NCBI RefSeq assembly: GCF_008360935.1
Contig: NZ_SRXO01000017.1
Location: 1-64,000 of the forward strand
Direction of reading: 5' to 3'
Length of the DNA stretch: 64,000 bases
From: Siccirubricoccus phaeus
GTDB lineage: Bacteria; Pseudomonadota; Alphaproteobacteria; Acetobacterales; Acetobacteraceae
The stretch's first letter is position 1. Every line of letters begins with the position of its first letter. Below the pieces are notes generated by a model, which saw only the letters and a list, made by a program, of their open reading frames with translations, was not told the origin of the DNA and ran no database searches. Positions 614-15,187 of the stretch are shown in pieces. Position numbers and translations under genes: made by a program.

Positions 614-1972
614 ATGGATCGAGACCAGAAAGACGACCCGCGGCTCAGCCGGCTGCCCAGGGAGCCCATCGACCGGGTCACCGGGCCGCTGGCACGGTTC
701 CTGCGCATCGAGACCGCCGGCGGCCTGGTCCTCCTCCTGGCTGTCGCCGCGGCGCTGGCGCTCTCCAACTCGCCCTTGGCCGACGGCTTCCTCACCGCCT
801 GGGAGACGCCCATCGGCGTCCAGCTCGGCCCACTGGCGCTCGTCCACCCGACGAGGGACTGGATCAACGACGGCCTGATGGCGCTGTTCTTCTTCGTCGT
901 CTCGCTGGAGCTCAAGCGCGAGCTGGTCCTGGGCGAGCTCAGGAACCCGCGCGTCGCCGCGCTGTCCGTCGCAGCCGCGCTGGGCGGCATGCTGGCGCCC
1001 GCTGCGCTCTACCTTGCGCTGCAGCTGGGCCAGCCTGGCGAGCGTGGCTGGGGCACGGTGATGGCGACGGACACCGCCTTCGTCATCGGCTGCTTGGCGC
1101 TCCTGGGGCGACGCGCCCCGCAAGGGCTGCGCGTCTTCCTGCTCTCGCTCGCGGTGGTGGATGACCTCGGCGCCATCCTGGTTGTCGCGATCGGCTACAG
1201 CGGCGCGCTTGACTGGGCCGCGCTCGCGGTCGGCAGTGTCGGCCTTGCCGTGGTCCGCGGCATGGCGCTGCTCGGCGTGCGGAGCGTCCCGGTCTACGTG
1301 CTCGCTGGCGTCCTGGTCTGGCTCGCCATCGACGCGTCGGGGATTCACCCCACCGTCACCGGCTTGGCGCTCGGGCTGCTGACGCCGACCCGCGGCTGGG
1401 TGAGCGACCGGCGCCTGCGCGCCATCCTGGGACGGGTCCTCGCCCGTCCGCCGGGCGGCGACCGCTGGAGCGGCGACGCCGAGGGCCGCCGGGCGCTGCG
1501 TTCGGCCGGGAGGGCGGCACGGGAGGCGCTGTCCCCGGTCGAGCGGTTCGAGGCCGCGCTGCACCCCTGGGTCGCCTTCGGTGTCATGCCGCTGTTCGCC
1601 CTGGCCAACGCCGGGGTGCCGCTCTCCCTCGACGCGCTCACGGACCCCGTCGCCCTGGCCGTGGTGGCGGGCTTCGTGCTCGGCAAGCCGGCCGGCGTCG
1701 TGGGCTTCGCCTGGCTGGCGGTGCGCTCGGGCTTAGCGGCGCGACCGGCAGAGCTCGGCTGGGGCGCACTGGCCGGGGGCGGCATGCTCGCCGGCATCGG
1801 CTTCACCATGGCGCTGTTCATCGCCGGCCTGGCGTTCCAGGGCGCGCTGCTCGACGCCGCCAAGCTGGGCATCCTGGGCGCGTCCGTCCTCTCGGCGGCG
1901 GGCGGCCTCGCGCTGCTGGCCTGGCTGGCCCGCGGCGGCGGCGATCGTCTCGCCGTCGCAGACGGCCTGTGA
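614..1972 (+). CDS. nhaA: Na+/H+ antiporter NhaA (copy 1)
   Basis: Inner-membrane antiporter that exports Na+ (or Li+) in exchange for protons. The 452-aa product has about a dozen hydrophobic helices and the family landmarks: ATDTAF near residue 149 (E. coli Asp133 region), VVDDLGAI near 181 (the Asp163/Asp164 pair) and GKP near 356 (Lys300 region). I chose ATG 614 over the in-frame GTG at 605 because the second copy at 60980 begins with the same MxRDxxDDPRL pattern. A GGCAGGG stretch lies directly upstream. A diverged paralogue sits at the other end of the window. Confidence 0.95.
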   Translation: MDRDQKDDPRLSRLPREPIDRVTGPLARFLRIETAGGLVLLLAVAAALALSNSPLADGFLTAWETPIGVQLGPLALVHPTRDWINDGLMALFFFVVSLELKRELVLGELRNPRVAALSVAAALGGMLAPAALYLALQLGQPGERGWGTVMATDTAFVIGCLALLGRRAPQGLRVFLLSLAVVDDLGAILVVAIGYSGALDWAALAVGSVGLAVVRGMALLGVRSVPVYVLAGVLVWLAIDASGIHPTVTGLALGLLTPTRGWVSDRRLRAILGRVLARPPGGDRWSGDAEGRRALRSAGRAAREALSPVERFEAALHPWVAFGVMPLFALANAGVPLSLDALTDPVALAVVAGFVLGKPAGVVGFAWLAVRSGLAARPAELGWGALAGGGMLAGIGFTMALFIAGLAFQGALLDAAKLGILGASVLSAAGGLALLAWLARGGGDRLAVADGL

Positions 1973-2119
1973 GGGCATCGGACGGCCGGGGCCAGGCAGG
2001 ATGGCCGCGGACAGGGGCAGATTCCGCTTGCGAAGGGGTGAAGGAAGCAGGTGGGGTGCCCGGGCGTTGGCTCCGGCATGGTCAGCCGATCCGATGACAA
2101 CACCCTGGTGGAGGGGTGC

Positions 2120-2488
2120 ATGACCCTGAGGCTCGTGTCTTCCGGCGACGGCCCGGCGTTGGCGCTCCGCGACCACCTCCTGCCGCTCGTCCGCGAACGC
2201 GGCATCCTAGAGGTCCAGAGCGGCGCAGTCAGGCTGGTCGCGCTGCGGACGGCAGCCTGGACCGTCGAGCACTGGACCCCGTTCAACGACCTGTCGCCGG
2301 GCGAGGCGTCGTCCCCGGGCTACCGGCATGCCCTCGAGCATCAGCGCACGAGGCCGGACCTGCCCTACGGGCTCGACGTGTGGCACACCGGCGCGAAGGT
2401 GCTGAGCGTCCTCTGGGCTGACGACGGGGCCTTCGAGGTGGTCCACTTCGCCCGCGGCCCCTGGGAGGCCGAGGCACTGGCGCTGTAA
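2120..2488 (+). CDS. Hypothetical protein, 122 aa
   Basis: I do not recognise this family. It is a compact soluble protein with no signal peptide or membrane segment, containing the stretches RLVALRTAAWTVEHW and YGLDVWHTGAKVLSVLW and ending in acidic residues. ATG 2120 is chosen because GGAGGGG precedes it at normal spacing; the frame stays open upstream to a GTG at 2051. Codon use matches its neighbours. It lies downstream of nhaA in the same direction, with about 150 bp between them. Confidence 0.6.
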   Translation: MTLRLVSSGDGPALALRDHLLPLVRERGILEVQSGAVRLVALRTAAWTVEHWTPFNDLSPGEASSPGYRHALEHQRTRPDLPYGLDVWHTGAKVLSVLWADDGAFEVVHFARGPWEAEALAL

Positions 2489-2761
2489 CGGTGCCGCCGC
2501 TTCGTCGCCGCGAAAGGCCGCCGGACGGATGCAGGTCCGGCCGGGGTGCCTACCATCGTCCTTCCGTCCTTCCCGCCCTTCGGGCGGCGTGGTGCCTCCC
2601 CGAAGCGGCGCAGCCGCGCGCGGTGGCTCTCCGGCCCGGAGCCCTGGCGATCCCGTCGTCGCCGACGGCCTCCGACGGCGGGGACATGGGCTGACCCAGA
2701 GCGGGGCCGTTCCGCTGGCGCCGGTCGCGCCGCCTTCGCGCCGCGGGCCCGCCTTTCCTGC

Positions 2762-3295
2762 TCAGCACCATCCCGCCGATGTGCCGTGCGCGACCCGGAC
2801 CAGGGTCTTCGTCTCGCCGAAGAGCGGGATCCCCACATAGATCCGCGCCACGATCAGGTCGGCGGATCGGAGTTCCGCCGAGACCCGGTACGTCTTCCCG
2901 TCGTCCGGGTTATAGAACCAGCCGCCTCCCCAGCGGTCGGGGCCGGCGGGGCGCAGGCCCCAGAGAACGGTCAGGCCGCACAGCGGGCGCTGCCGCAGCG
3001 CCGGGTCGGGGTTGTTCCTGTCGCGATTCAGCCGCCCCTGAGGATCGCGCGGCGTTAGCAGCCAGAGGATCCGGCCGCACAATTGACCGGTGCAGTCGAA
3101 GATCTGCACGGCCGCCTTCCCGTCGATGAGCCACACACCGGCGGGAACGGCTGCCGAGGCCCTGGTGCATGGGACCGCCAGGACCATGAGGATCGCGAGC
3201 AGCAAGGCAGCGCGGTGCAGCCCTTGCGGTAGGCCCGGACAGGGAGTCCGTGTCCGGCTTCGGCGGGGCTGAGCGGGAACGGAGCACGGCGGCAC
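2762..3295 (-). CDS. DUF2147 family secreted protein (copy 1)
   Basis: A 177-aa protein with an N-terminal hydrophobic signal-like segment (LLLAILMVLAVP) ending near ASA, followed by the DUF2147 domain: GVWLIDGKAAVQIFDC, CGRILWL, RDPQGRLNRDRNNPD and a GGGWFYNPDDGKTYR stretch. DUF2147 proteins are periplasmic or secreted and their function is unknown. The start is set at GTG 3295 because GAGGAGG lies six bases upstream; where the second copy (63501-63992) has its ATG this copy reads ACA, so the two starts differ. Upstream frame to 3364 is open but has no ribosome site. Confidence 0.85.
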   Translation of the reverse strand: MPPCSVPAQPRRSRTRTPCPGLPQGLHRAALLLAILMVLAVPCTRASAAVPAGVWLIDGKAAVQIFDCTGQLCGRILWLLTPRDPQGRLNRDRNNPDPALRQRPLCGLTVLWGLRPAGPDRWGGGWFYNPDDGKTYRVSAELRSADLIVARIYVGIPLFGETKTLVRVAHGTSAGWC

Positions 3296-3502
3296 GGATG
3301 CCTCCTCGATGCCCCCGCCCGGCGCGGAGGACGCCGGAGAGCACGGAATGGTGCTTCCTCGCATACTGTTATTCCTGGGCCCGAATCACGATCTCATGTG
3401 GACAGGCACTTTACCCGCGACCGCTCGGACCGTTGCGTACCGCGAGCATGCGCCGGGCCGCGATCAACGCGGCCGAATGTGCCGTTTGGAAAGACAGCCG
3501 TC

Positions 3503-3784
3503 ATGAACGCGAAGCTCAACGACGAGATCGCCGACCGCACCGCCGAGGAGCGGAGCGAGAACGAGGGCATGCCGGAGCATGCCGCCAAGGCCCGCGACCC
3601 GGTGCGATGGGCCGCGGATCGTCACGCGAGGGCGAGTCAGCTCAGGTCGGAACGCCCCTCTGGCCACATCGGTATATCCGGCATCGCCTTGATGTCGTGT
3701 GCCGCGCTGGCCGCGCTCGCGTCCGCCCGCGGTGCGGTCCGTTGGATGCGGCACAAGGGCAGCGCCCTGAGGCTTCCCCGCTGA
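3503..3784 (+). CDS. Hypothetical protein, 93 aa, possible membrane segment
   Basis: Unrecognised. It begins MNAKLNDEIADRTAEERSE, a charged helical stretch, and has one weakly hydrophobic segment near residues 57-73 (ISGIALMSCAALAALASA) followed by basic residues. That gives a charged N-terminus with one C-terminal membrane anchor, a layout shared with small DUF-type stress proteins. The ribosome site before ATG 3503 is weak. It lies in a run of small genes between the DUF2147 gene and the BON gene. Confidence 0.45.
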   Translation: MNAKLNDEIADRTAEERSENEGMPEHAAKARDPVRWAADRHARASQLRSERPSGHIGISGIALMSCAALAALASARGAVRWMRHKGSALRLPR

Positions 3785-3877
3785 GCGGCCCGAACGAGGC
3801 CACTGGCGCTGGCCGCGTATCCACCATGCCCCAGGGACGGCCGGCGCCGCCGTGCGCCCCGATCACAGGAGAAAGCC

Positions 3878-4015
3878 ATGGCCAAGGGTCAGAAGCGGAG
3901 CAGCCGGGAGGCGAAGAAGCCCAAGCAGCCGAAGGCGAAGGTCATCGCCGCCGTGTCCCCCTTCGCGACCGCGCGGGCGCAGGCCGCCGCGCCCGCGCCT
4001 GCGAAGAAGCGCTAG
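3878..4015 (+). CDS. Small basic Lys/Ala-rich protein, 45 aa
   Basis: A very short gene opened by ATG 3878 with AGGAGA seven bases upstream, ending with TAG at 4013. The product starts MAKGQKRSSREAKKPKQPK and is strongly basic with an Ala/Pro-rich tail ending AKKR. Similar tiny Lys-rich proteins are common and uncharacterised in alphaproteobacteria; the charge suggests nucleic-acid contact, but that is only inference. It precedes the BON-domain gene by 32 bp. Confidence 0.55.
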   Translation: MAKGQKRSSREAKKPKQPKAKVIAAVSPFATARAQAAAPAPAKKR

Positions 4016-4047
4016 CGGCGGAACGCAGTTCGGCGGGAGAGGCCGTT

Positions 4048-4740
4048 ATGGGCGAGGACAGGATCAGGCCGAACATGGACGAGACGCCCGCACGGCCCGG
4101 AACGCAGGGCACGCCAGCGCAGCGGGCGGGCAACGCCACTGCCACACATGGGGTCGCGGCCCAGCCGCCGGCGGCCCAAACCGAACCCGGCCGCGGGCGG
4201 ATGCAGGCCCAGGCCGGTGCCGTCGCACCACGGATCGAGGTCCGCCTCCCGCCGGAGGCCGACGGGTCGGACGAGGCGATCGCCGAACGGGCGCTGCAGG
4301 CCCTCTTCTCGGCCGCCCCGCTGCGACGCGAGCGCATCCTGATGAGGATCGCGCGGGGGCGGATCACGCTGAGCGGCTCGGTCGGCACCGACGCGGAGCG
4401 CTCCGCCGCCGAGCGGCTGGCCGCCGGCATCGAGGGCGTGGTGGAGGTCACCAACCTGGTCGCGGTGGAGCGGCATGGGCGGACCACCGAGGCCACCCAA
4501 AGCGTCGCCGAGGCCTATGGCGGCGATGCGGAGAGCGGCGACGTCGCTGGCCGGATCGAGGCGCTGTTCGTGCGCGAGGCCGGGCTGGGAGCGACCGAAG
4601 TCGTGATCAGCGCGGTCGGCGGCAAGGTCGTCCTGAGCGGGCGCGTATCCAGCTGGCGCGAGCGCGACCTGGCCGAGCGCATCGCCTGGGCGGCCCCCGG
4701 CGTCACCGAGGTGCTGGACCGCATCACGGTGGGGTCGTGA
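4048..4740 (+). CDS. Protein with two BON domains
   Basis: A 230-aa protein with two BON domains, at about residues 70-135 (GRITLSGSVGTDAERSAAE, then GVVEVTNLVAVE) and 165-230 (GGKVVLSGRVSSWRERDLAE, then GVTEVLDRITV). BON domains are thought to bind phospholipids or to act as modular attachment domains in stress and envelope proteins. There is no signal peptide; the first 70 residues are low-complexity and polar. ATG 4048 has GGAGAGG five bases upstream. The frame is open much further 5', but that part runs antisense to the DUF2147 gene and is rejected. Confidence 0.8.
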   Translation: MGEDRIRPNMDETPARPGTQGTPAQRAGNATATHGVAAQPPAAQTEPGRGRMQAQAGAVAPRIEVRLPPEADGSDEAIAERALQALFSAAPLRRERILMRIARGRITLSGSVGTDAERSAAERLAAGIEGVVEVTNLVAVERHGRTTEATQSVAEAYGGDAESGDVAGRIEALFVREAGLGATEVVISAVGGKVVLSGRVSSWRERDLAERIAWAAPGVTEVLDRITVGS

Positions 4741-4817
4741 CGCCGGCTCGGCAGGGCGCTCGGGGGGAGCAGTCAGGTGGAGAGTGAACGCCGCAGCACG
4801 CGGCCAAGGAGGCCAGA

Positions 4818-4997
4818 ATGCAACCGAACCCCATGCGTCCGAACCCCGCCGGATTTCCCGGCTATGTGTCCGAGCGCCGCTTTGGCCTGATGATGCTGGC
4901 CTGCGCGCTGGCGCTCGCCGTCATGCTGGCGGTCGTCTACGGCACCGTGGGCTTTGCCCCGGTCTGGGCCGTCCACGCCGTTCCTGCGTCGCCGTAG
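4818..4997 (+). CDS. Small single-pass membrane protein, 59 aa
   Basis: ATG 4818 follows AAGGAGG at ideal distance. The product has a Pro/Asn-rich start (MQPNPMRPNPAGFPGY), a basic RR pair and one long hydrophobic helix from about residue 24 to 54 (LMMLACALALAVMLAVVYG). It is probably a single-span inner-membrane protein with its N-terminus in the cytoplasm. No family is recognised. Confidence 0.6.
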   Translation: MQPNPMRPNPAGFPGYVSERRFGLMMLACALALAVMLAVVYGTVGFAPVWAVHAVPASP

Positions 4998-5165
4998 GCG
5001 GTAGTCCCTCAGCAGTCTGCCGGTGGTTGGCCCCGAACCCGGCGCTGTGGGACGGCGGACGGCACGGTGGACGGCCGAATGGCCGGTCCGCCGCAACTGG
5101 TGGCGGTGGCGCGTGATGTCGGCGGGCGCCTCCGCCTGGAACCCACGCCGAGGAGGACGCATCCG

Positions 5166-5693
5166 ATGAATGCCGACCAGCCGAGCGATGCCGGTGGTGC
5201 CCGGGGCGGCGGGCGGCCTGCCCAGCCCGCGGCGGCCGAGGGTTCCCGGCCTCTCTTCTCCCTGTCCCTCGACGCGATGTACGCGGCGCGGGATGAGCGG
5301 GAGCGGCGCAGTGAGGCGGCGGCGGTGGAGGCCGCGCGGCGGGAGGACGAGCATCGGGCCGGCAACCGCGGCCGCTTCGAGGCCCGCGGCCTGACCGACG
5401 CCGACCGCGTGGACATGATCTCGAAGGTCAAGGCGGCGTTCGAGGGCGGTCAGGGGGAGGTGATGCTGGTGTCGTTCCCCTCCGACTACTGCACGGACGG
5501 CGGGCGCCGGATCAACAACCGCCTTCCCGGTTGGCAGGACACGCTGCCGGCCGGCGCGCGGGTGTTCCTCGAGTTCTGGCACGACGCCCTGCGACCGGGC
5601 GGCTTCGGGCTCGGTGCCCGGATCCTGAACTTCCCGGGCGGCGTGCTCGGCGAGGTCGGCCTCTTCGTCACCTGGCCCGAAGGCAGGGGCTGA
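5166..5693 (+). CDS. Hypothetical protein, 175 aa
   Basis: Unrecognised soluble protein. Residues 1-70 are Gly/Ala/Arg-rich and helical. The C-terminal half looks globular, with DMISKVKAAFEGGQGEVMLVSFPSDYCTDGGR in two runs, then LEFWHDALRPGGFGLGARI and a FPGGVLGEVGLFVTW end. ATG 5166 has GAGGAGGA upstream. The stop overlaps the start of the desaturase gene (TGATG at 5691-5695), so the two are probably translationally coupled. Confidence 0.6.
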   Translation: MNADQPSDAGGARGGGRPAQPAAAEGSRPLFSLSLDAMYAARDERERRSEAAAVEAARREDEHRAGNRGRFEARGLTDADRVDMISKVKAAFEGGQGEVMLVSFPSDYCTDGGRRINNRLPGWQDTLPAGARVFLEFWHDALRPGGFGLGARILNFPGGVLGEVGLFVTWPEGRG

Positions 5694-6934
5694 TGCCGGG
5701 GGTCGCCGGCACCGACGCCAACCGTCCCCCTGCGGAGCAGACCCGTGCCGATCGGCACGAGTTGAGAACGGTCGCCCTCCGTTTCCAGGAGGCCGCACCC
5801 CGGACCGCCGCGCTGCAGCTCGCCACCACCTTCCTGCCCTTGCTGGCGCTGCTCGCGGCGACGCAGGCCGGCCTCGCCTTGGGCTGGTGGTGGGCGCTGA
5901 CGCTGGGCCTGCCGGCGGCAGGGTTGACGGTGCGCGTCTTCGCTCTGCAGCATGATTGCGGGCACGGCTCCTTGTTCCGCACGCCGCGCGCCAACGACCT
6001 TGTTGGGCGGCTCTGCTCGCTGTTCACTTTCACGCCCTACGGGCACTGGCGGCGGCAGCACGCCGGGCACCACGCGGTCTGGAACGACCTCGACCGCCGC
6101 GACCGCGGCACCGACATCTACTCGACCTGCGAGACTGTTGCTGAGTACCGGGCCATGGGTCGCGCGCGGCGCCGTGCCTACCGCATCCTGCGTCATCCGC
6201 TGCTTATGCTTCTGGTATTCCCGCCCCTGGTGTTCCTCGTGCTCTACCGCGTCCCGTATGACGCGCCGGTCGGCTGGGGCCGGGAGCACCGCAGCGTGCA
6301 CCTGACGAACCTTTCGTTGCTCGCCTTTTACGGCGGCTTCTCGGCGCTGCTCGGCATCGGGCCGGTGACAGCCGGCGTCCTCGCCGTGATGGTGCCGGCC
6401 AGCATCGCCGGCGTCTGGCTCTTCTCGGTGCAGCACCGCTTTGACGGGGTACATTGGGCGCGCCACGCGGCCTGGGATCGAGTGACCGCGTCACTCGCGG
6501 GCAGCTCCTACCTGCAATTGCCGGCGGTTTTGCGGTGGTTGACGGCAAGCCTCGGCTTCCATCACGTGCACCACTTCGCGCCGCGCATCCCGAATTACCT
6601 GCTGGAGGCCTGCCACGACGCGCACCCCGCCTTCGCTACTGCGCGGGTGGTCACGCTGCGTGAGGCTTTCTCGGCGCCCGGCCACCTGCTGTGGGACGAG
6701 GAGGCCGGCCGCATGGTGACCTTCAAACAGGCCGAGGAGGCGCCGCCCAATAAGGGGCTTGATGGTCTTCGCGGCGGACCAGGCTTGCCCAGCCGAAGCG
6801 CAGCCTCGGCGGCGGCCCCTCACGCTGGCCGGTTCCGACGACGCCTGGTTCTGGGCGAGACCCGCTCCGCCCTGCCGGACATACCGCCGGCTCTGAGGGA
6901 GACCAGCGCGACCGATAGGAACAGCGCGACATGA
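5693..6934 (+). CDS. Membrane fatty acid desaturase
   Basis: A di-iron integral-membrane desaturase that introduces double bonds into membrane acyl chains using O2. The three histidine clusters are present: HDCGH (near residue 86), HAGHH (near 123) and HHVHH (near 289), with hydrophobic helices between the first two and after the second. The length is 413 aa. The last 65 or so residues after MVTFKQAEE are Ala/Arg-rich low-complexity sequence not expected in the family, so the real 3' end may have been extended by a frameshift. ATG 5693 overlaps the stop of the preceding gene. Confidence 0.9.
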   Translation: MPGVAGTDANRPPAEQTRADRHELRTVALRFQEAAPRTAALQLATTFLPLLALLAATQAGLALGWWWALTLGLPAAGLTVRVFALQHDCGHGSLFRTPRANDLVGRLCSLFTFTPYGHWRRQHAGHHAVWNDLDRRDRGTDIYSTCETVAEYRAMGRARRRAYRILRHPLLMLLVFPPLVFLVLYRVPYDAPVGWGREHRSVHLTNLSLLAFYGGFSALLGIGPVTAGVLAVMVPASIAGVWLFSVQHRFDGVHWARHAAWDRVTASLAGSSYLQLPAVLRWLTASLGFHHVHHFAPRIPNYLLEACHDAHPAFATARVVTLREAFSAPGHLLWDEEAGRMVTFKQAEEAPPNKGLDGLRGGPGLPSRSAASAAAPHAGRFRRRLVLGETRSALPDIPPALRETSATDRNSAT

Positions 6935-7004
6935 AATCGGGGGGTGATGGCTCACGGTGGGGCCAGGGTCCTTGCCCTGATGCAGTCCGGATCGGGGGAA
7001 CACT

Positions 7005-7442
7005 GTGACGATCACAATATACCATGACCCGAACTGCGCCACGTCACGCGACGTCCTGGCGCTCATTCGCAACAGTGGCGAGGAGCCGGAGACTATCGAG
7101 TACCTGAAGGCGCCGCCCTCGCGCGAGACGCTCGTAGGCTTGCTCCGGCGCATGGACATCCCCGTGCGCGACCTGCTGCGCCAGGAAGTGCCGTCATACG
7201 AGGAGTTCGGTCTCGATGACGCCAAGTGGGCTGACGACGCGCTGATCGACCTGATGCTGCGGCACCCCGTTCTGATGGATCGCCCGATCGTGGTCAGCCC
7301 GCTTGGCGTGCGGCTGTGCCGGCCATCGGAGACGGTCCTGAACATCCTGCCCGCTCCACAGGAGGGCGCCTTCCGCAAGGAAAATGGCGCGCCTGTTATC
7401 GATGACCAGGGAAGACGCGTTGATCGGACCGCTTTGGATTGA
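7005..7442 (+). CDS. arsC: ArsC family arsenate reductase (glutaredoxin type)
   Basis: A 145-aa thioredoxin-fold protein. It has the active-site Cys11 in HDPNCATSR, IEYLKAPPSRETL, and a C-terminal MDRPIVVS followed by VRLCRPSE supplying arginines of the arsenate site. ArsC reduces arsenate to arsenite with glutaredoxin and glutathione. No arsB, acr3 or arsR is adjacent, so a role outside arsenic resistance (the related YffB/Spx-like branch) stays possible. The start codon is GTG with GGGGGAA upstream. Confidence 0.85.
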   Translation: MTITIYHDPNCATSRDVLALIRNSGEEPETIEYLKAPPSRETLVGLLRRMDIPVRDLLRQEVPSYEEFGLDDAKWADDALIDLMLRHPVLMDRPIVVSPLGVRLCRPSETVLNILPAPQEGAFRKENGAPVIDDQGRRVDRTALD

Positions 7443-7596
7443 GCGCATCCCGGACAGGGCCAGTCGCGGCGGCATGTGCACTGCCTCGGGGGCAGCGAGG
7501 ATCACCCCGTCCGTGCGGGCCGCTGGGGAAACGCACCTTCATACCGGGCCGCGATGAGGTGCCGTGCCGGCGGCATCCCCAGGGCCTTGAGCAGGC

Positions 7597-8445
7597 ATGA
7601 CCGCGAGATCAAGCCGGCACGAGGCAGTGCTGGAAGCGGAGAACGCACGCCTGCGGGCTGAGCTTGCCGCCGCTGAGAGCCGTGCCGCAAAGAACGCCGA
7701 GGTGCGAACATACGAGCTCGCCGACGCGCGCACTGATCTCGCCAGTTCCGAGGCGCTGAACGCGGAGCTTCGCCGGGCTAACGCCGAACTGGCGGGGAGC
7801 GAGCGGCATCGGGACCTGCTACTGGCCGAACTGAACCACCGCGCAAAGAATATCCTTGCCACCGTGCAGGGGCTTGCCGCGCAGACGTTAAAGGGAGTCG
7901 GTGGTAATCCTCGGCGCTTCGCCCAGCACTTCGGAGCGCGGCTGCGAACCTTGGCGCGGGCGCAAGACATGTTGGCGGCGCGCGGGTGGGAGCCGGCCAG
8001 CATCGAGGACACCGCGCGGAATGCGCTGGCGCCGTGGCTGGGGACCGGCCGGGCCGTTCAGCTCAACATCTCGAGCAGTTGCCTCGGCGTGACGGTATCG
8101 CCGCGGCAGGCGCAGGCCCTGGTACTCGCCTTTCACGAGCTGGCCACCAACGCCACCAAGTACGGTGCGCTCTCCGTTTCCGAGGGGCGGGTCGAGATCC
8201 GGTGCGAGGCGGGAGCGGACGGAGCTATGGCGATCCATTGGGCAGAGGCGGAGGGCCCGCCGGTGGTAGGGCCGCCGGACCGGCGGGGCTTTGGCACCCG
8301 GCTGCTGGAGCGCGGCCTGGCAATGGACCTCGGACCCGGCAGCAGCGTCGAGCTGCACTTCGAGCCAGCCGGTTTCCAGGCGGCAATCCACTTCATCCCC
8401 GCGCAGGGACCGCACTGGCCGACCAACCGCCATCGGAGTGCCTAA
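7597..8445 (+). CDS. Short cytoplasmic HWE-type histidine kinase
   Basis: A 282-aa kinase without sensor or membrane domain. Residues 8-75 form a coiled coil. The phospho-acceptor His is near residue 82 in ELNHRAKNILATVQ, the N-box is HELATNATKYGAL near 180, and the HWE signature appears as IHWAEAEGPPV followed by a glycine-rich lid (RRGFGTRLLERGL). HWE kinases often belong to alphaproteobacterial general stress and light responses. With no input domain, it probably gets its signal through protein contact via the coiled coil. No response regulator gene is adjacent. Confidence 0.85.
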   Translation: MTARSSRHEAVLEAENARLRAELAAAESRAAKNAEVRTYELADARTDLASSEALNAELRRANAELAGSERHRDLLLAELNHRAKNILATVQGLAAQTLKGVGGNPRRFAQHFGARLRTLARAQDMLAARGWEPASIEDTARNALAPWLGTGRAVQLNISSSCLGVTVSPRQAQALVLAFHELATNATKYGALSVSEGRVEIRCEAGADGAMAIHWAEAEGPPVVGPPDRRGFGTRLLERGLAMDLGPGSSVELHFEPAGFQAAIHFIPAQGPHWPTNRHRSA

Positions 8446-8929
8446 CGATTCGCGCGCCGGCTGCCGGTCCAGAGAATGTTAGCGCCCGGTTTCTCTCGCC
8501 ACACCATTCCTGCCTGGAAACTCGCTCTCCGGCTGGGCAGGGACCACGCGGAACCGCAGGTTTCGCCAGGGTTGGCGCGTGAACCTTGGGAGTGCCGGAA
8601 GCGGAGCGGGCCGGAATTCTCTCTCCGGACGGGCGATTCTCTCCAAACCTGGGGACTTGGCCGATTTAGTCCCGAGGTTTGGATCCAGGAAAATGGCCGG
8701 TTTCCGAGCGGCAGGTCCCGCGGTGGTTGGAAACCCGAATGCCCGACCGCTTGCCTCTAGCCGAGAACTGCGAAGCGCTCTCCATTTCGAAATCCGATCC
8801 TGGTCCATAATGGACTGACGCCGCTTAGGGCCGGACCTCCGCCGTAACCCATGGAAGGGGTCTAAGCCTCGCACCCATCGGGCAGGTGGAGGATCGCGCG
8901 TCCGTTTAGCATAGACCGCTGTCCTTCCT
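8446..8929. other. Gene-poor stretch upstream of the methyltransferase island
   Basis: No convincing gene on either strand. The base composition is less GC-rich than the preceding genes. Two short perfect palindromes are visible: ATTTCGAAAT at 8784-8793 and GTCCAT-A-ATGGAC at 8803-8815. This is probably the junction between host DNA and the acquired island that begins with the promoter at 8931. Confidence 0.5.
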
Positions 8930-8959
8930 GTTGCGCAACGCCCATTGTGGATTTATAAA
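8930..8959 (+). promoter_or_regulatory. Sigma-70-like promoter with a palindrome over its -35 box
   Basis: TTGCGC at 8931-8936 and TATAAA at 8954-8959 are separated by 17 bp, 36 bp before the ATG of the MerR-like gene. The -35 box lies inside a perfect palindrome, GTTGCGCAAC (8930-8939), a plausible binding site for the regulator encoded first in the operon. Autoregulation is inference. Confidence 0.55.
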
Positions 8960-8994
8960 CGGCGCCAGATTCTCGTTGTTAACCACAGGATTTC

Positions 8995-9465
8995 ATGGGC
9001 ATCAGGACGATTCACTTCACGCAGGAGCAGGCCCGAGACGTTGTCGGCGTGTCGGCCGAGAAGCTGCGTCATTGGCGGAAGACCATCCCGTACCTCCGGC
9101 GAAAAGCGGGGAAATCGGCAAGGTTCACCTTCTCCGATCTCGTCGGCCTAGCCGTCACGCTCGAAATTGTCGATCGGCTGGGAGTCGGCATTGCCAGCAT
9201 CCAGAAAGGCGTGGACGAACTCTTCGAGCTACTCGGCCAAACCGACCTCACCCGCCTCCGCCAACTAGTTGCCGTCGTCTCGCCGGATAGTGTCCGCCTC
9301 TGCTCGGCCACTGAACTTCCTTGGTCCGACCCGGGTGAGCCCATGATTGCAGTACCGTGTCGACCCCTGGTGGACAGAGTGAGTGGTCATGTCCTGCCGA
9401 TCACGCCAAAGCCGCAATCAGCACTGCCGTTCCCGCCACAGGCGTTGCGAGCCCGGTCGAAATGA
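8995..9465 (+). CDS. MerR-like winged helix-turn-helix regulator
   Basis: A 156-aa protein whose first 75 residues match the MerR DNA-binding fold: FTQEQARDVVGVSAEKLRHWRKTIPYLRR, then RFTFSDLVGLAVTLEIVDRLGVGIASI. The remainder lacks the long MerR dimerisation helix and has no metal-binding cysteine pattern, so no ligand can be assigned. It is first in a three-gene operon; its stop overlaps the methyltransferase start (ATGA, 9462-9465). It probably controls expression of the methyltransferase and nuclease, much as C-proteins do in restriction systems. Confidence 0.75.
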   Translation: MGIRTIHFTQEQARDVVGVSAEKLRHWRKTIPYLRRKAGKSARFTFSDLVGLAVTLEIVDRLGVGIASIQKGVDELFELLGQTDLTRLRQLVAVVSPDSVRLCSATELPWSDPGEPMIAVPCRPLVDRVSGHVLPITPKPQSALPFPPQALRARSK

Positions 9466-12400
9466 GCCAGAGCCCTCTAAATCGCGTTCTTGAGGCGACC
9501 GGCTACATCCAGGATGGCGCTCCCGCCCACGGGGTGCAGTTGGGCGATGATGCGCGGCGGGCTAGGCGTGGACGATGCTTTGTGCCCGATGCCCTCTGGC
9601 GCGGCGCCTCCGCGCTCACCGTTTATTTCAAGTATTGGGAAGCTCAGCCCGCCGAAGCAGCGGTCGAGGAATGGCGCCGCGAGATCTGGAATGAGGGGTT
9701 TGCCCCGCTGCTCTGGGTGATCTCCCCGCAGCGGATCGAACTCTATAATGGCTTCGGCCGCCCAGTATCGCGCGACGATGCAGGACGACACCTGCTGCGG
9801 ACCTTCACAACGATCGAGCGTGAGCTCCAGGAACTGGACCAGCTCGCGGGCCGCCTAGCGATGGAGACCGGACAATTCTGGCTTCGACCGGAAGCCGTAA
9901 ACCGCAAGACGAGCGTCGACGAGCAGCTCCTATCCGACTTGGCTGTGCTCGAACGTGATCTCGTGCGCGCCGATCTCAATCGCGCAACCGCTCAGGGCCT
10001 GATTGGCCGTTCGATCTTCACTCAGTACCTGATCGACCGGAAGATCGTTGGGCCTGACCGGCTCACCGCCGAATGCGGCGTGAGCAGCCTACCCTCAGCA
10101 CTCCGCGACCCGGTGGCGAGCGGCCGACTGTTCACTTGGCTCGCCAATGTCTTCAATGGCGACATGTTCCCGGAGTCGGCTGCGACCGCAAACCTCTCGG
10201 AGCGGCACCTGTCGCGTGTGGCCGATTTCCTCGAGGCGATCGACCCCGAAACTCGGCAGCTGACATTCTTTCCCTACCAGTTCGACGTAATCCCCGTCGA
10301 ACTCATCAGCTCTATTTACGAGCAATTCGCACACTCAAAAACCGGTGCTGCGTCAGCAGACGGCGATGCTGCCGATGAGGACGCAGGTCTGGCTGATGAG
10401 GCGGTCGCTGCCCACGCCATAACGCCCGCCGAGGCCAAGCGCCGAGGGGTTCACTACACGCGGCTTCCGGTTGTGTCGCTGATCCTCGACGAGATCATGG
10501 ACGGGATCACGGGTGCCGAGACAGTCCTCGATCTTACCTGCGGCTCGGGAGTTTTTCTCGTTGAGGCGTTTCGACGGCTTGTCGCCCGCAAGGGCGGCGA
10601 CGCGCCTGCCCGCGAACTAATTCGGTCAACCCTCTATAACCAGGTTTACGGCGTTGACATTAGCGACGCTGCCGTCCGGGTCGCCGCTTTCAGCCTGTAC
10701 CTTGCGGCGCTCGAGCTCGACCCCGATCCGCAACCGCCCGAGGGGCTCAAGTTTGAGCGCCTGATCGGGCGAACGCTCCTTGTCGGCGACGCCCACGACG
10801 TCGAGACTACACCGGAAGGCACAGCGCTACTCGATGAGGAGGGCGAGCGGCGGCGGTTCGATATCGTTGTTGGCAATCCGCCATGGACCTTTCGAGGCAA
10901 GCAGGGGACGCAGGAGCGCCGTCATCGCTCCCGACCTGATGCGCCTCGCCAGCCGCGGGGCGAAGGTCTGGACTTCGTGCTTCGAGCAACCGAGTTCGGA
11001 CACGACGGCACGCGATACGGCCTCGTGCTGAGTGCAATGCCTTTTTTTGCAGGCAGCAAGACAGGTGCCGCTGCCGCTCGCTACATTGTACAGCGACTCT
11101 CTCCCGCGACGCTCGTCAACCTCGCCTCGCACACCAAGTGGCTGTTTCCTACAGCCAAGATGCCGGCCGTAGTGCTCCTAGCACGCCACCGCCCCCAGAG
11201 CCCCGACCAGCTAACCGTTGTTAATGTCCCCTGGTCGCCTTCGGCCGAGAAATCTTACACCTTCGAAATCGCTCCGAGCGACATCACCGTCCTGTCTTTG
11301 GCAGATTGGGCGCGCGACCCAGAGCGCCTGAAGACGGCGGCGTTCGGGCGTGGGCGCGACATGCTGCTACTTGACGATCTACGGTCGCGCTTCGATGACC
11401 TTAACAGCTGGCTGACCTCCATCGGCTCGGGATGGCGCGACGGGCTGATTCTTGGCAAGTCGAAGCAGTGGACGCGGGACGCCTCACATCTCGAAGGCCT
11501 CGAGGTCCTCGGCACGAAGGATCTAACTCCATTCCAGGTTCCCTCAGGGCTGACGATCTTCAAACATGCAAAAGCACAATGGCCCCGCGCACGAGAAACC
11601 TACGGGAAACCGATTCTCCTCATTAAGGAATTCCTAAAAGCCGGACCGCGACCTGTCGCGGCTGTTGCCGACCGCGATCTCGTCTACACGGATGCGTACT
11701 TCGGAGCCTCAGTCGGGGAGGCACACCGCGAGAGCGCCCACCTAATCGCAGCAGTGCTCAATTCGGCGCTGGCATCCTGGTTCTTCTTGATGACCGCCTC
11801 CGAGTTCGGCGTGTGGAAGCGCCGGCTGCTGACTAATGATGTCGGGCTCCTGCCGTTGCCCGACCCCGCCGCCGCCGGCCGGACAAAGGCCGGCCAGCGG
11901 ATTCTCACCCTTGAGGCCGGGTTCCGCACCCGTGCCGTCGACCAGGAAGGCTGGGCCGAACTCGACCGCGCCGTGTTCGACCTTTACGGCCTTGATGCCT
12001 CCGACCGCTTGGTGGTTGCAGATGGGCTCACCCGCGCGAGCTGGCAGTGGGCCGAGGGCCGCGAGTACGCAACTCAGTCCGCTCAACTGAAGCAGGATCT
12101 GTGGCCATACGCCGAGGCATTTATAAGCGGTGTCGACGCTTGGCTGCAGGCAACGAAAAAGCGGCGGATGCGCGCGGAAATCCTCGACGTCGCCGACGGT
12201 GCGCCGCTGCGCGTGATCAGGTTCCTTCTCGAAGCACGGCAGGGTCCGCCAACGGTCGAGGTCATCCCGGTCGAAGGCGAGCTGACCGACGTACTCGACC
12301 GGATCGGGCGGCGCCTCGACGTGCGCCTTGGCTCCGCCCTCGTCGGCGGGCGCGAACTACGCGTGCACGGGCCCAACGAGATCGTCGTTATTAAACCTGC

Positions 12401-12485
12401 TGCCCGGCGGTTTTGGATGCCAGCCGCGGCGCTGGAAGACGCTGATGCCGTCGTGGCCGAGAGCTTCGCCGGGGCGGCCGCGTGA
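9462..12485 (+). CDS. N6-adenine-type DNA methyltransferase, 1007 aa
   Basis: A large SAM-dependent DNA methyltransferase of the type I/IIG kind. In order: an N-terminal 300-residue region with PDALWR and ALTVYFKYWEAQP that may be a decayed nuclease fold; a motif X-like GVHYTRLPVVSLI near 330; motif I DLTCGSGVFLVEAF near 354; motif IV VGNPPW near 471; and a C-terminal target-recognition region to residue 1007 with DVGLLPLP. Use of NPPW points to adenine methylation. The start ATG 9462 is coupled to the regulator stop, and the stop overlaps the nuclease start. GC content is lower than in the flanking host genes, consistent with acquisition. Confidence 0.85.
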   Translation: MSQSPLNRVLEATGYIQDGAPAHGVQLGDDARRARRGRCFVPDALWRGASALTVYFKYWEAQPAEAAVEEWRREIWNEGFAPLLWVISPQRIELYNGFGRPVSRDDAGRHLLRTFTTIERELQELDQLAGRLAMETGQFWLRPEAVNRKTSVDEQLLSDLAVLERDLVRADLNRATAQGLIGRSIFTQYLIDRKIVGPDRLTAECGVSSLPSALRDPVASGRLFTWLANVFNGDMFPESAATANLSERHLSRVADFLEAIDPETRQLTFFPYQFDVIPVELISSIYEQFAHSKTGAASADGDAADEDAGLADEAVAAHAITPAEAKRRGVHYTRLPVVSLILDEIMDGITGAETVLDLTCGSGVFLVEAFRRLVARKGGDAPARELIRSTLYNQVYGVDISDAAVRVAAFSLYLAALELDPDPQPPEGLKFERLIGRTLLVGDAHDVETTPEGTALLDEEGERRRFDIVVGNPPWTFRGKQGTQERRHRSRPDAPRQPRGEGLDFVLRATEFGHDGTRYGLVLSAMPFFAGSKTGAAAARYIVQRLSPATLVNLASHTKWLFPTAKMPAVVLLARHRPQSPDQLTVVNVPWSPSAEKSYTFEIAPSDITVLSLADWARDPERLKTAAFGRGRDMLLLDDLRSRFDDLNSWLTSIGSGWRDGLILGKSKQWTRDASHLEGLEVLGTKDLTPFQVPSGLTIFKHAKAQWPRARETYGKPILLIKEFLKAGPRPVAAVADRDLVYTDAYFGASVGEAHRESAHLIAAVLNSALASWFFLMTASEFGVWKRRLLTNDVGLLPLPDPAAAGRTKAGQRILTLEAGFRTRAVDQEGWAELDRAVFDLYGLDASDRLVVADGLTRASWQWAEGREYATQSAQLKQDLWPYAEAFISGVDAWLQATKKRRMRAEILDVADGAPLRVIRFLLEARQGPPTVEVIPVEGELTDVLDRIGRRLDVRLGSALVGGRELRVHGPNEIVVIKPAARRFWMPAAALEDADAVVAESFAGAAA

Positions 12486-13141
12486 GGATACCTTTCGGTC
12501 AGTCGGCCGCAATCGGCCGCACCTTTATCAACCTCAATACCGAGCTGACCGTAGCGATCCTTCGAACGGTTGAGGCTGGTTGGGAGCTCGCCGCTAAACG
12601 CGAGGTCGTGCATCCGGGGGCGGACGAAGTCGCGATAACCGAGACGCTGCGCGACGCGATGCGCGAAGCCCTTGCCCTGCGACGCTTGCCCTGGCGCAAG
12701 ACGATGATCGTGGCTCCAGGCTCGGAGTCGCGTTCACGGCCAGGCATGACAGCGCCAGACGGTCGGACCGACATCCCGCTTTACCTCACACGGATCTTCG
12801 CCCGATCGGGCGAGCACGACCCGCATGTGATCATCGAATGCAAGCGCGTTGCCGCCGGTGACACAGATCTCGCTCGGGAGTATGTCGTCGAGGGTATCGA
12901 CCGTTTTCGGAACGGAAAATACTGCGAAAATCACGCCCGCGGCTTCATGGTGGGCTATGTTCTGTCAGGCTCTCCCGCAGCTGTGGTAAATGGCATCAAC
13001 AGTTATCTAACCGGCCGGAAGCGTCTGGCGGAGCTCCTCTCACTGGCTGGCGCTCCGGAGTTGGCGGGCTGGATGAGCGAGCACGACCGGGTCACGCCTA
13101 ACGTTCCCATCCTGCTGCACCATTCCATGCTGGTGGTCTAA
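12482..13141 (+). CDS. PD-(D/E)XK nuclease-like protein
   Basis: A 219-aa protein opened by GTG 12482, overlapping the methyltransferase stop by four bases. It carries a probable PD-(D/E)XK core: Asp96 in DGRTDIPLYL and Glu118/Lys120 in HVIIECKRV, the spacing expected of restriction endonuclease-like folds. The C-terminal half (FMVGYVLSGSPAAVVNGI) resembles the end of such domains. With the methyltransferase it would form a restriction-modification pair; whether it cuts DNA is not shown by sequence. No known restriction enzyme family was recognised. Confidence 0.65.
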   Translation: MRIPFGQSAAIGRTFINLNTELTVAILRTVEAGWELAAKREVVHPGADEVAITETLRDAMREALALRRLPWRKTMIVAPGSESRSRPGMTAPDGRTDIPLYLTRIFARSGEHDPHVIIECKRVAAGDTDLAREYVVEGIDRFRNGKYCENHARGFMVGYVLSGSPAAVVNGINSYLTGRKRLAELLSLAGAPELAGWMSEHDRVTPNVPILLHHSMLVV

Positions 13142-13451: not shown

Positions 13452-13841
13452 TTACGGTTCGATTGCAGCGCGCTGTTCGCTCCAGCTGCTTGGCAAGTGC
13501 TCTATCAACGCCGGTAGCATCAAATCGATTGGCTGCCGTCGGTCCAGGATCGCTTCTACGATGTCCGGCGCCAGCAGCGTGAGCCGCAGCATCTTCCCGA
13601 GATAGGACCGGTCGATCTTCTCGGTCGCGGCCAGCTCGCCGAGGGAAGCAAAGCGTCCGCTCTCCAACAGCCGCTTCCACCGGTGCGCCCGGGCCAGTGC
13701 CTTTACCAGGGCTGGGTCGGCCCGCGTGCGCGCTGGCGTGGCGCCAGGGGCGCTGCCATCTGGCGTGACCACCAGCTTCCGCCCGCCGCGGCGGCGAATC
13801 GCCAGCGGGACGCGGACCGTGATGCTGGTGGCCGCCGTCAC
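13452..13841 (-). CDS. Recombinase-associated HTH-like protein, 129 aa
   Basis: This small protein typically follows DUF2924-linked recombinases. A basic N-terminus (RVPLAIRRRGGRKLVV) is followed by a helix-turn-helix-like stretch, SLGELAATEKIDRSYLGKMLR, read here in two parts as an HTH and a recognition helix, then LLAPDIVEAILDRRQP. It overlaps the recombinase gene by four bases (ATGA at 13838-13841). It probably assists or regulates the recombinase; no activity has been established. Confidence 0.75.
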   Translation of the reverse strand: MTAATSITVRVPLAIRRRGGRKLVVTPDGSAPGATPARTRADPALVKALARAHRWKRLLESGRFASLGELAATEKIDRSYLGKMLRLTLLAPDIVEAILDRRQPIDLMLPALIEHLPSSWSEQRAAIEP

Positions 13842-15183
13842 GCCGCCCTCCGGGTCTCGGTCCCGATGCCGCCGAGGTCGCGCACCAAGCTGGCCAGCCC
13901 CTCTAGCCGCAGCCGGATGTCGGCGCCGGCGGGACCGACCTCGACCCGCTCGACCAGCAGCCGGACGATGCGGGCCTGCTCGGCCGGGAACAGCTCCTCC
14001 CAGAGCGGGTCCAGCCGCTCCAGGGCCGCCAGGGTCTCCGCCTCGGTCAGGTCGACTGCCTCGGCACGCGCCGCCCGCCAGGTGCCGACCACCACCTCGG
14101 GCTGGCGCAGCAGCGCCCGGACCTGGTCCACCACCGCGGCCTCGATCTCGGCCGCGGGGAGGCGCCGGACCGGGCAGTCGTCGGCCGTCCCCTTCAGCAC
14201 GGCCTGGCTGACGTAGTAGCGGTAGAGCCGCCCCCGTCGCCGGGTGTGGGTGGGCGACATCGCCCGGCCGTCCGGCCCGAAGATCAGGCCGCGTAGCAGG
14301 GCCGGGGTCTGCCGGCGGTTCCGGTTGGCGCGCACCCGCGGGCTCTCCCGCAGGATGTCATGGACCCCGTCCCAAAGCTCCCGCGGCACGATGGCCCGGT
14401 GCTCGCCGGGATGCACCTTCCCCTTGTGCGCCACCTCGCCGAGGTAGGTTCGGTTGTTCAGCAGCCGGTAGAGCGCCCCCTTGTCGAAGGGCCGGCCGGT
14501 CTTGGTCAGCACGCCCTCGGCGCGCAGCCGCCGCACCGCCTCCACACCGGAGCCGGTTTCGGCGAAGAGCTCGAACGCCCGCCGCGCCCGCGCGGCCTCC
14601 GCCTCGTTCACCACCAGCTTGCGGTCGCGCACATCGTAGCCGAGCGGCACCGAGCCCCCCATCCACATGCCGCGGGCCTTCGAGGCGGCGATCTTGTCCC
14701 GCACCCGCTCGCCGATCACCTCGCGCTCGAACTGGGCGAAACTAAGCAGGATGTTCAGCGTCAGCCGGCCCATGCTGGTCGTGGTGTTGAAGCTCTGCGT
14801 CACCGAGACGAAGGTGACGTCGTTCGCGTCGAATACCTCGACCAGCTTGGCGAAGTGCATCAGCGAGCGGCTCAGGCGGTCGATCTTGTAGACCACCACC
14901 ACGTCGACCCGGCCGGCTTCGATGTCGCGCAGCAGGCGCTGCAGTGCGGGGCGCTCCAGGGTGCCGCCGGAGACGCCGCCATCGTCGTAGTGGTCCGGCA
15001 CCAGCACCCAGCCCTCGGCGCGCTGGCTGGCGATGAAGGCCTCGCAGGCGTCGCGCTGGGCATCGAGGCTGTTGAACTCCTTCTCCAGCCCTTCCTCGGT
15101 CGACTTCCGGGTGTACACGGCGCAGCGGAGCTTCTTCACCGTGGCCGGCATGGTGGCGTCGGCCGCGGCGGTCCCCTTGCGCC

Positions 15184-15187
<4 letters not shown>
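13838..15187 (-). CDS. Large serine recombinase (probable prophage integrase)
   Basis: A 449-aa site-specific recombinase. The N-terminal resolvase domain has the catalytic Ser29 in YTRKSTEEG, then DHYDDGGVSGGTLERP, YKIDRLSRSLMHF and the arginine-rich LSFAQFEREVIGERVRDKI. Next come the recombinase domain (GYDVRDRKLVVNEAEA, then LLNNRTYLGEVAHKG) and a C-terminal DNA-binding region. The usual four-cysteine zinc ribbon is not evident; only a single Cys (DDCPVRR) remains there. No tyrosine integrase exists in the window, so this is the best candidate for prophage integration and excision. It is translated with DUF2924 upstream and the 129-aa gene downstream through four-base overlaps. Confidence 0.88.

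Follow-up and report, generated by a model that had tools for sequence, protein, structure and literature searches.

The locus analysed here raises the question of whether three overlapping genes in the window (the whole stretch of 64,000 nucleotides of Siccirubricoccus phaeus DNA) make up a restriction system and, if they do, which of their products would cut. As a preliminary description of this DNA had stated, three plus-strand ORFs are joined by an ATGA overlap between genes 1 and 2 and a GTGA overlap between genes 2 and 3, with four bases common to each neighbouring pair (Table 1). The same description had noted a lower GC content, and this too was borne out: the operon has a GC content of 0.63, and the remaining parts of the window have 0.71 (left side) and 0.718 (right side). 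A value as low was found in five of 300 sliding windows of equal length, those overlapping the operon being counted. ArsC and an HWE kinase are encoded on the left side of the operon; on the right are a serine recombinase and a DUF2924 protein.

Table 1. Positions of the operon's genes, domains and motifs, and of one neighbouring gene, in the window.
Feature	Position	Strand	Detail
Upstream operator-like palindrome GTTGCGCAAC	8930..8939	+	Overlaps -35 position; spacer two bases under family pattern
TATAAA, -10-like box	8954..8959	+	Between the two palindromes; read by eye
Downstream operator-like palindrome GTTGTTAACCAC	8975..8986	+	One mismatch to GTTG-N4-CAAC
Gene 1: MerR-like HTH regulator	8995..9465	+	ATG start, 156 aa; Pfam MerR_1 E 0.00099
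Gene 2: type IIG-like N6-adenine DNA methyltransferase	9462..12485	+	1007 aa
N-terminal domain of gene 2, residues 1-115	9462..9806	+	Probably nuclease-like, without active site
N6-methyltransferase catalytic domain, residues 321-589	10422..11228	+	Pfam N6_Mtase 1.4e-13
Motif I DLTCGSG, residues 357-363	10530..10550	+	D357, C360, G361, S362 and G363 invariant, 43 sequences
Motif IV NPPW, residues 472-475	10875..10886	+	Invariant, 43 sequences
TaqI_C-like target recognition region, residues 694-798	11541..11855	+	Pfam TaqI_C E 0.0033, below cut-off
Gene 3: predicted PD-(D/E)XK-like nuclease, unnamed family	12482..13141	+	219 aa; without significant family match
Putative catalytic Asp97 codon	12770..12772	+	D in 73/73 ungapped rows of 78
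Putative catalytic Glu119-Cys-Lys121 codons	12836..12844	+	E and K in 73/73 ungapped rows of 78
Serine recombinase, neighbour outside the operon	13838..15187	-	Pfam Resolvase 4.8e-41, Recombinase 2.7e-14

A genome-contig scan with a six-row alignment of gene 3 recovered 75 loci. These lie in alpha-, beta- and gammaproteobacteria, and gene 3 is also found in assemblies labelled Acidobacteria, Dadabacteria, Verrucomicrobiia, Vicinamibacterales, Gemmatimonadetes, Puniceicoccaceae and Rhodothermaceae. Together with a plasmid locus (L009), a viral contig (L010) and the window, the scan provided 78 sequences; 51 gene 3 copies of at least 180 aa differ by more than 10%. Conservation of the gene neighbourhood, proposed earlier as a check, was evident in this set. 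A gene 2 relative adjoins gene 3 in 71 of the 78 sequences, and a gene 1 relative stands upstream of the methyltransferase in 45 of those 71 (that of L061 only at E 0.00075), which makes the trio complete in 45 of 78. Linkage and gene order were observed directly on these contigs. Where gene 2 is missing, the contig begins at or inside gene 3 (L010 and L051), the gene 3 copy is truncated (the four copies of L047-L050), or no methyltransferase lies upstream of a gene 3 whose ORF start is, by our own reading, foreign (L070). A start codon permitting the four-base overlap is present at 38 of 45 gene 1-gene 2 junctions and 34 of 71 gene 2-gene 3 junctions; fragmentation of one gene leaves L036 and L082 (2/71) with no such start codon within 32 bases.

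Whole-genome searches gave a similar picture of linkage. A single-protein search found gene 3 relatives in 7 of 289 genomes of the class, the window's included. Among 398 genomes of the phylum, a draw that shares at least one genome with the contig scan, gene 3 occurred in 7 and gene 2 (E ≤ 1e-60) in the same 7, again counting the window's own; by coordinates the two genes are adjacent in all 7, of which six were read apart from the window. The operon is present in 2 of 60 near relatives of the window's genome, the window included. Between genes 2 and 3 the distance matrices correlate with r 0.97 (47 nonredundant pairs); the matrix of gene 1 correlates with that of gene 2 or gene 3 at r 0.90 (29 pairs), shared descent being left in both values. 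At the level of sequence distances, these correlations show joint inheritance of genes 1, 2 and 3.

The large middle gene has the gamma-class adenine methyltransferase domain, with motifs I and IV, that characterises type IIG enzymes. Of the methyltransferase motifs reported in the preliminary description, motif I (D357-x-x-CGSG) and NPPW (motif IV, N472-PPW) show no variation in 43 of 43 aligned sequences. Besides N6_Mtase, gene 2 matches Pfam Eco57I (5e-9). Its best PADLOC match is a type IIG model (residues 323-802, 5.5e-45), and type IIG PADLOC models are matched by all 43 aligned members. A Foldseek search with the predicted structure (pLDDT 82.4) gave 83 PDB matches at E ≤ 0.001; CamA was the best match, and M.BseCI, BpuSI, DrdV and BREX PglX were also matched, as was MmeI in a profile search. 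CamA is a methyltransferase that is not known to have a restriction partner. Its rank as best structural match of gene 2 would suit a CamA-like orphan epigenetic methyltransferase with gene 3 as an irrelevant neighbour, a reading that we consider very improbable because gene 3 is adjacent across phyla and its catalytic residues are invariant.

Type IIG enzymes are defined, in a passage of PMC4081073, by an active nuclease domain and a methyltransferase in one polypeptide. No active nuclease domain was found within the gene 2 chain. The strand expected to bear the type IIG E-x-K corresponds to residues 49-62 of gene 2; [ED]-x-K is absent from this strand in 64 of 64 relatives, and none of the 64 has D or E at residue 55, the expected acidic position. 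Of the 64, 34 retain D43 and 33 retain K57, largely within the window's own branch, which is rich in near-identical copies. An [ED]-x-K triplet occurs elsewhere within residues 1-115 in 16 of 64 relatives, unaligned with the expected strand. In a 32-row alignment of the domain, no column reached 60% K or 70% acidic residues. W76, N77 and L84 are invariant, and the domain is conserved apart from the active site. By definition, therefore, the operon is not type IIG, since that class consists of one chain and the active site sought in gene 2 was not found there.

It had been suggested earlier that the N-terminal region of gene 2 could be a decayed nuclease. Its position, its predicted topology and the partial D43...K57, lacking the E, speak for this suggestion, while no sequence or profile match showed a nuclease fold. 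The profile of the domain had zero matches among solved chains, and a profile comparison detected no relation to gene 3 (probability 0.06%); a shared origin of this domain and gene 3 is thus unsupported by profile comparison. A nuclease fold for the domain is plausible from its position, predicted secondary structure and partly kept D...K, and we regard the domain as probably nuclease-like, its active site lost and a structural role kept.

The D...E-x-K core that the preliminary description placed in the third protein proved invariant across the family at D97, E119 and K121 (Table 1), three residues that were left out of the pattern with which the contig scan gathered the relatives. In the same 78-sequence alignment, E49 is kept in 71 of 72 ungapped rows, and E-x-K is also kept in 9 of 9 gene 3 relatives obtained from the whole-genome searches. 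In the predicted structure (pLDDT 84.6, pTM 0.84), D97 is at the start of one strand and E119 and K121 are in the next, followed by a helix and a strand. The order of helices and strands is that of PD-(D/E)XK enzymes, and D...E-x-K falls, as in those enzymes, on adjacent core strands. No separate recognition domain is evident in this 219-aa model.

Gene 3 resembles no catalogued family. By itself it had no match at E ≤ 1 in Pfam, PADLOC or NCBIfam, none among PDB sequences, and a single match in PHROGs (0.13). Of 51 family members none matched PADLOC, one matched Pfam TfoX_C (0.0045) and one NCBIfam TruD (0.0038), both of which we take for chance; the 51-member profile had no match among PDB chains. 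With Foldseek, 0 of 623 matches of the model to PDB structures and 0 of 353 to viral models reached E ≤ 0.001. Proteins named nucleases were found only among the insignificant structure matches, such as Can2 (E 0.44, TM 0.33). The earlier reading of the third protein as a nuclease stands in part: the motif and the topology of the model predict a PD-(D/E)XK-type nuclease with fair confidence, and a significant structural match was not obtained. Several distant relatives differ in detail. In one distant gene 2-gene 3 branch (L113 and L109) the putative nuclease deviates around E-C-K; at L007, which covers the site of L113, the gene 2-gene 3 pair is followed by a long ORF with, by our own reading, a P-loop-like stretch; and at L112 (9870-12903) a distant relative has its methyltransferase broken into two ORFs, the adjoining nuclease ORF being open.

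For the suggestion that the locus is a possible restriction or defence system, the linkage, the invariant motifs, an HTH gene with a conserved palindrome and the mobile DNA are all favourable; the weaker part is the nuclease fold, with no significant structural match. We judge it rather probable that the locus is a mobile, self-regulating restriction-modification operon of type IIG-like character, its cutting part residing in a separate protein, a guided nuclease. The gene 2 protein would recognise a DNA site via its C-terminal specificity region and methylate adenine there, and the gene 3 protein, as a PD-(D/E)XK nuclease, would cut DNA without the methyl mark. Because it is small and has no evident recognition domain, gene 3 would most likely be positioned by gene 2, through a contact between the two proteins that we infer.

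Separate genes for methyltransferase and nuclease are also the arrangement of classical type II systems, and the gene 3 motifs are intact; gene 3 might then recognise and cut alone, with gene 2 only protecting the site. An ordinary two-enzyme system of this kind seems unlikely to us, given that the gene 3 protein has 219 aa with no evident separate recognition domain in its model, and that gene 2 resembles a type IIG enzyme both across residues 323-802 and in structure. We think it improbable that gene 3 is a suicide or modified-DNA nuclease that acts under gene 2 control and spares unmethylated DNA. Such a role would agree with an operon that has no helicase or further recognition subunit and with the insignificance of gene 3's fold matches to named nucleases, but a methyltransferase tightly coupled to a nuclease and to a controller-like regulator follows the usual restriction-modification logic. 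If gene 3 is instead a nuclease guided by gene 2, a more detailed reading can tentatively be offered as a possibility: a built-in type IIG nuclease may have lost its active site and become a docking platform, a separate nuclease of a new family would cleave, a MerR-like controller would regulate and conjugation would spread the operon.

Gene 1 scores slightly under the Pfam MerR_1 threshold (19.6 bits, cut-off 21.6); it is MerR-like and presumably not of the usual C-protein family. A promoter with a palindromic -35 box had been described upstream of it. A sigma-70 consensus scan of this region found no site; read by eye, TTGCGC-17 nt-TATAAA is present and overlaps GTTGCGCAAC, with a second palindrome at 8975-8986. 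The upstream element GTTGCGCAAC sits at the place where relatives have a second, weaker copy of GTTG-N4-CAAC, near -63. From the 45 sequences with gene 1 we removed L061 and one that lacks the anchoring column; the 43 remaining upstream regions included 27 nonredundant ones. A perfect GTTG-N4-CAAC, a motif picked after some of these regions had been seen, is present in 13 of the 27; over 200 shuffles the mean count was 0.095 and the highest 2. If one mismatch is allowed, 16 of the 27 have it, and the shuffles gave 1.6 on average and 7 at most. The conserved palindrome was thus observed directly, and branches without it have other palindromes, identified by eye, at the same place.

The gene 1 protein would bind the two palindromes around the promoter and set the expression of the whole operon, including its own, in the role of a controller protein. 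In six loci without gene 1 (L060, L064, L069, L073, L077 and L078), other small ORFs resemble, by our own reading, HTH or RHH regulators. That genes 2 and 3 remain where the regulator is exchanged speaks for control of the pair by gene 1. Gene 1 is not obligatory, since 26 of the 71 sequences that have gene 2 lack it, some of these being cut by contig ends.

Comparison with described systems places the operon near, though outside, several of them. Like type IIG enzymes of the BpuSI, DrdV and MmeI type, it combines a gamma-class adenine methyltransferase with a C-terminal specificity region; unlike them, it has its putative nuclease active site outside the gene 2 chain, in a separate gene that follows. 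In type IIT heterodimers such as BtsI, BsrDI and BspD6I, parts of PMC4081073 and, for BtsI, of PMC2909958 describe a small nuclease subunit without specificity that works with a large recognition subunit. The operon would likewise pair a small nuclease with a large recognition partner, an analogy of mechanism only; in type IIT enzymes the large subunit also cleaves and the methyltransferases are separate proteins, whereas here the large partner is itself the methyltransferase.

A small HTH gene in first position and palindromes at the promoter also recall C-protein regulated type II systems, as portrayed in parts of PMC6237814 and PMC3695507; unlike in those systems, the palindromes here vary between clades, and other small genes replace gene 1 in some loci. 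RptR, according to part of PMC12255303, is a repressor of type I restriction operons that binds a promoter palindrome with the site TAGCTA. It resembles gene 1, by description and not by sequence, in being a small restriction-linked regulator with a palindrome at the promoter of those genes, and differs in its type I system and its TAGCTA site.

BREX PglX, DISARM DrmMI and MADS MAD2 have a methyltransferase core related to that of gene 2, but the other core genes of these systems are absent from the window's operon. For BREX, the NCBIfam PglX models scored 23.7-42.4 bits against cut-offs of 400-900, and neither PglZ nor BrxC was among the matches listed for the operon. For DISARM, the DrmA helicase and DrmB were not among the matches listed, and the match of gene 2 to DrmMI was weak (2.2e-5). 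For MADS, NCBIfam MAD2 scored 13.8 bits against a cut-off of 720, and other MAD genes are not in the operon; in PADLOC, mad2 matched the gene 2 methyltransferase core at 1.8e-13 and mad1 matched gene 1 at 0.036. No helicase family, as type I or type III would need, was among the matches listed for the three proteins (for gene 2 in PADLOC, the best 25 of 42). With the remaining defining genes of BREX, DISARM, MADS and the type I and type III systems missing from the operon, all five were rejected as identities for it. In the broad sense of type II, a methyltransferase and a nuclease are encoded together here, the identity of the nuclease being taken from its motif and predicted topology.

The preliminary description had also held that the operon matches no named layout. 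This was right for the trio and for the putative nuclease, which are in no library that we searched; it was too broad for gene 2, which alone matches PADLOC type IIG models (43/43), so that the operon is a variation on an already known type. Pfam, PADLOC, NCBIfam and the PDB gave no significant match for the nuclease family, and the trio is undescribed in the libraries searched, a set that did not include REBASE or DefenseFinder. A search of journal articles, preprints and most subscription papers being outside its scope, returned no recognised description of the operon or of the nuclease family. Should the nuclease activity prove true, restriction-modification would gain a nuclease family not catalogued so far, together with a split architecture. 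It would also show a route by which a restriction enzyme made of one chain could become one made of two, leaving cleavage and methylation open to separate regulation or exchange. The PADLOC models searched would record a type IIG-like methyltransferase only and miss the nuclease and the regulator.

The mobility of the operon was observed directly in its surroundings. In 13 loci (L019, L021, L022, L024-L027, L029-L032, L035 and L040) it lies between RadC and TIGR03756, two components of a PFGI-1 class integrative conjugative element; two further loci cut by contig ends (L023 and L028) keep one of the two. The operon is thus carried in a conjugative element in 15 of the 75 loci. This carriage, across several genera, suggests selective value. 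Four other loci (L047-L050) have genes of the same conjugative element and retain no more of gene 3 than its end; their DNA, from three genera, is 98.7-99.95% identical across 8.6-10.3 kb, which suggests recent transfer.

Relatives in collections of viruses and plasmids were few. An IMG/VR contig that starts at gene 3 (100% identical) and has the same recombinase as the window was the only relative from the viral-contig pattern scan, and the phage collection gave no gene 3 relative. In the plasmid collection two records, both from Agrobacterium, have gene 3 relatives. A short DNA match (8%) links seven Bradyrhizobium plasmid records to the operon of one relative, an operon without a near match in E. 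coli genomes. Among ORFs neighbouring the operon (153 selected from 40 loci, 100 of them within the size limit and 99 scanned after one more was removed by hand), the best 25 of 67 families included restriction, DISARM, BrxH-like, AbiEii, Hma and MAD2-type matches, counted as presence only and with no control set.

The left junction of the operon in the window has features of its own. A dispersed repeat of about 190 bases (8486-8671) lies there, and similar pieces (71-87% identity) recur elsewhere in the window's genome and in related genomes. Roughly 7.2 kb of the window (1520-8671) is present once more, at 95% identity, on another contig of the same genome; the right limit of this match, 8671, is also the right end of the repeat. 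Gene 3 is single-copy in this genome. Further along the window's contig, at about 71.5-74.3 kb (L104, 5542-8306), a different cargo stands between a repeat of the same type and a second copy of the serine recombinase: an N-6 methyltransferase and an unnamed 231-aa ORF on the opposite strand. From the end of the block at 8671 and the different methyltransferase cargo of L104, the junction appears to be a site at which restriction-type cargo changes.
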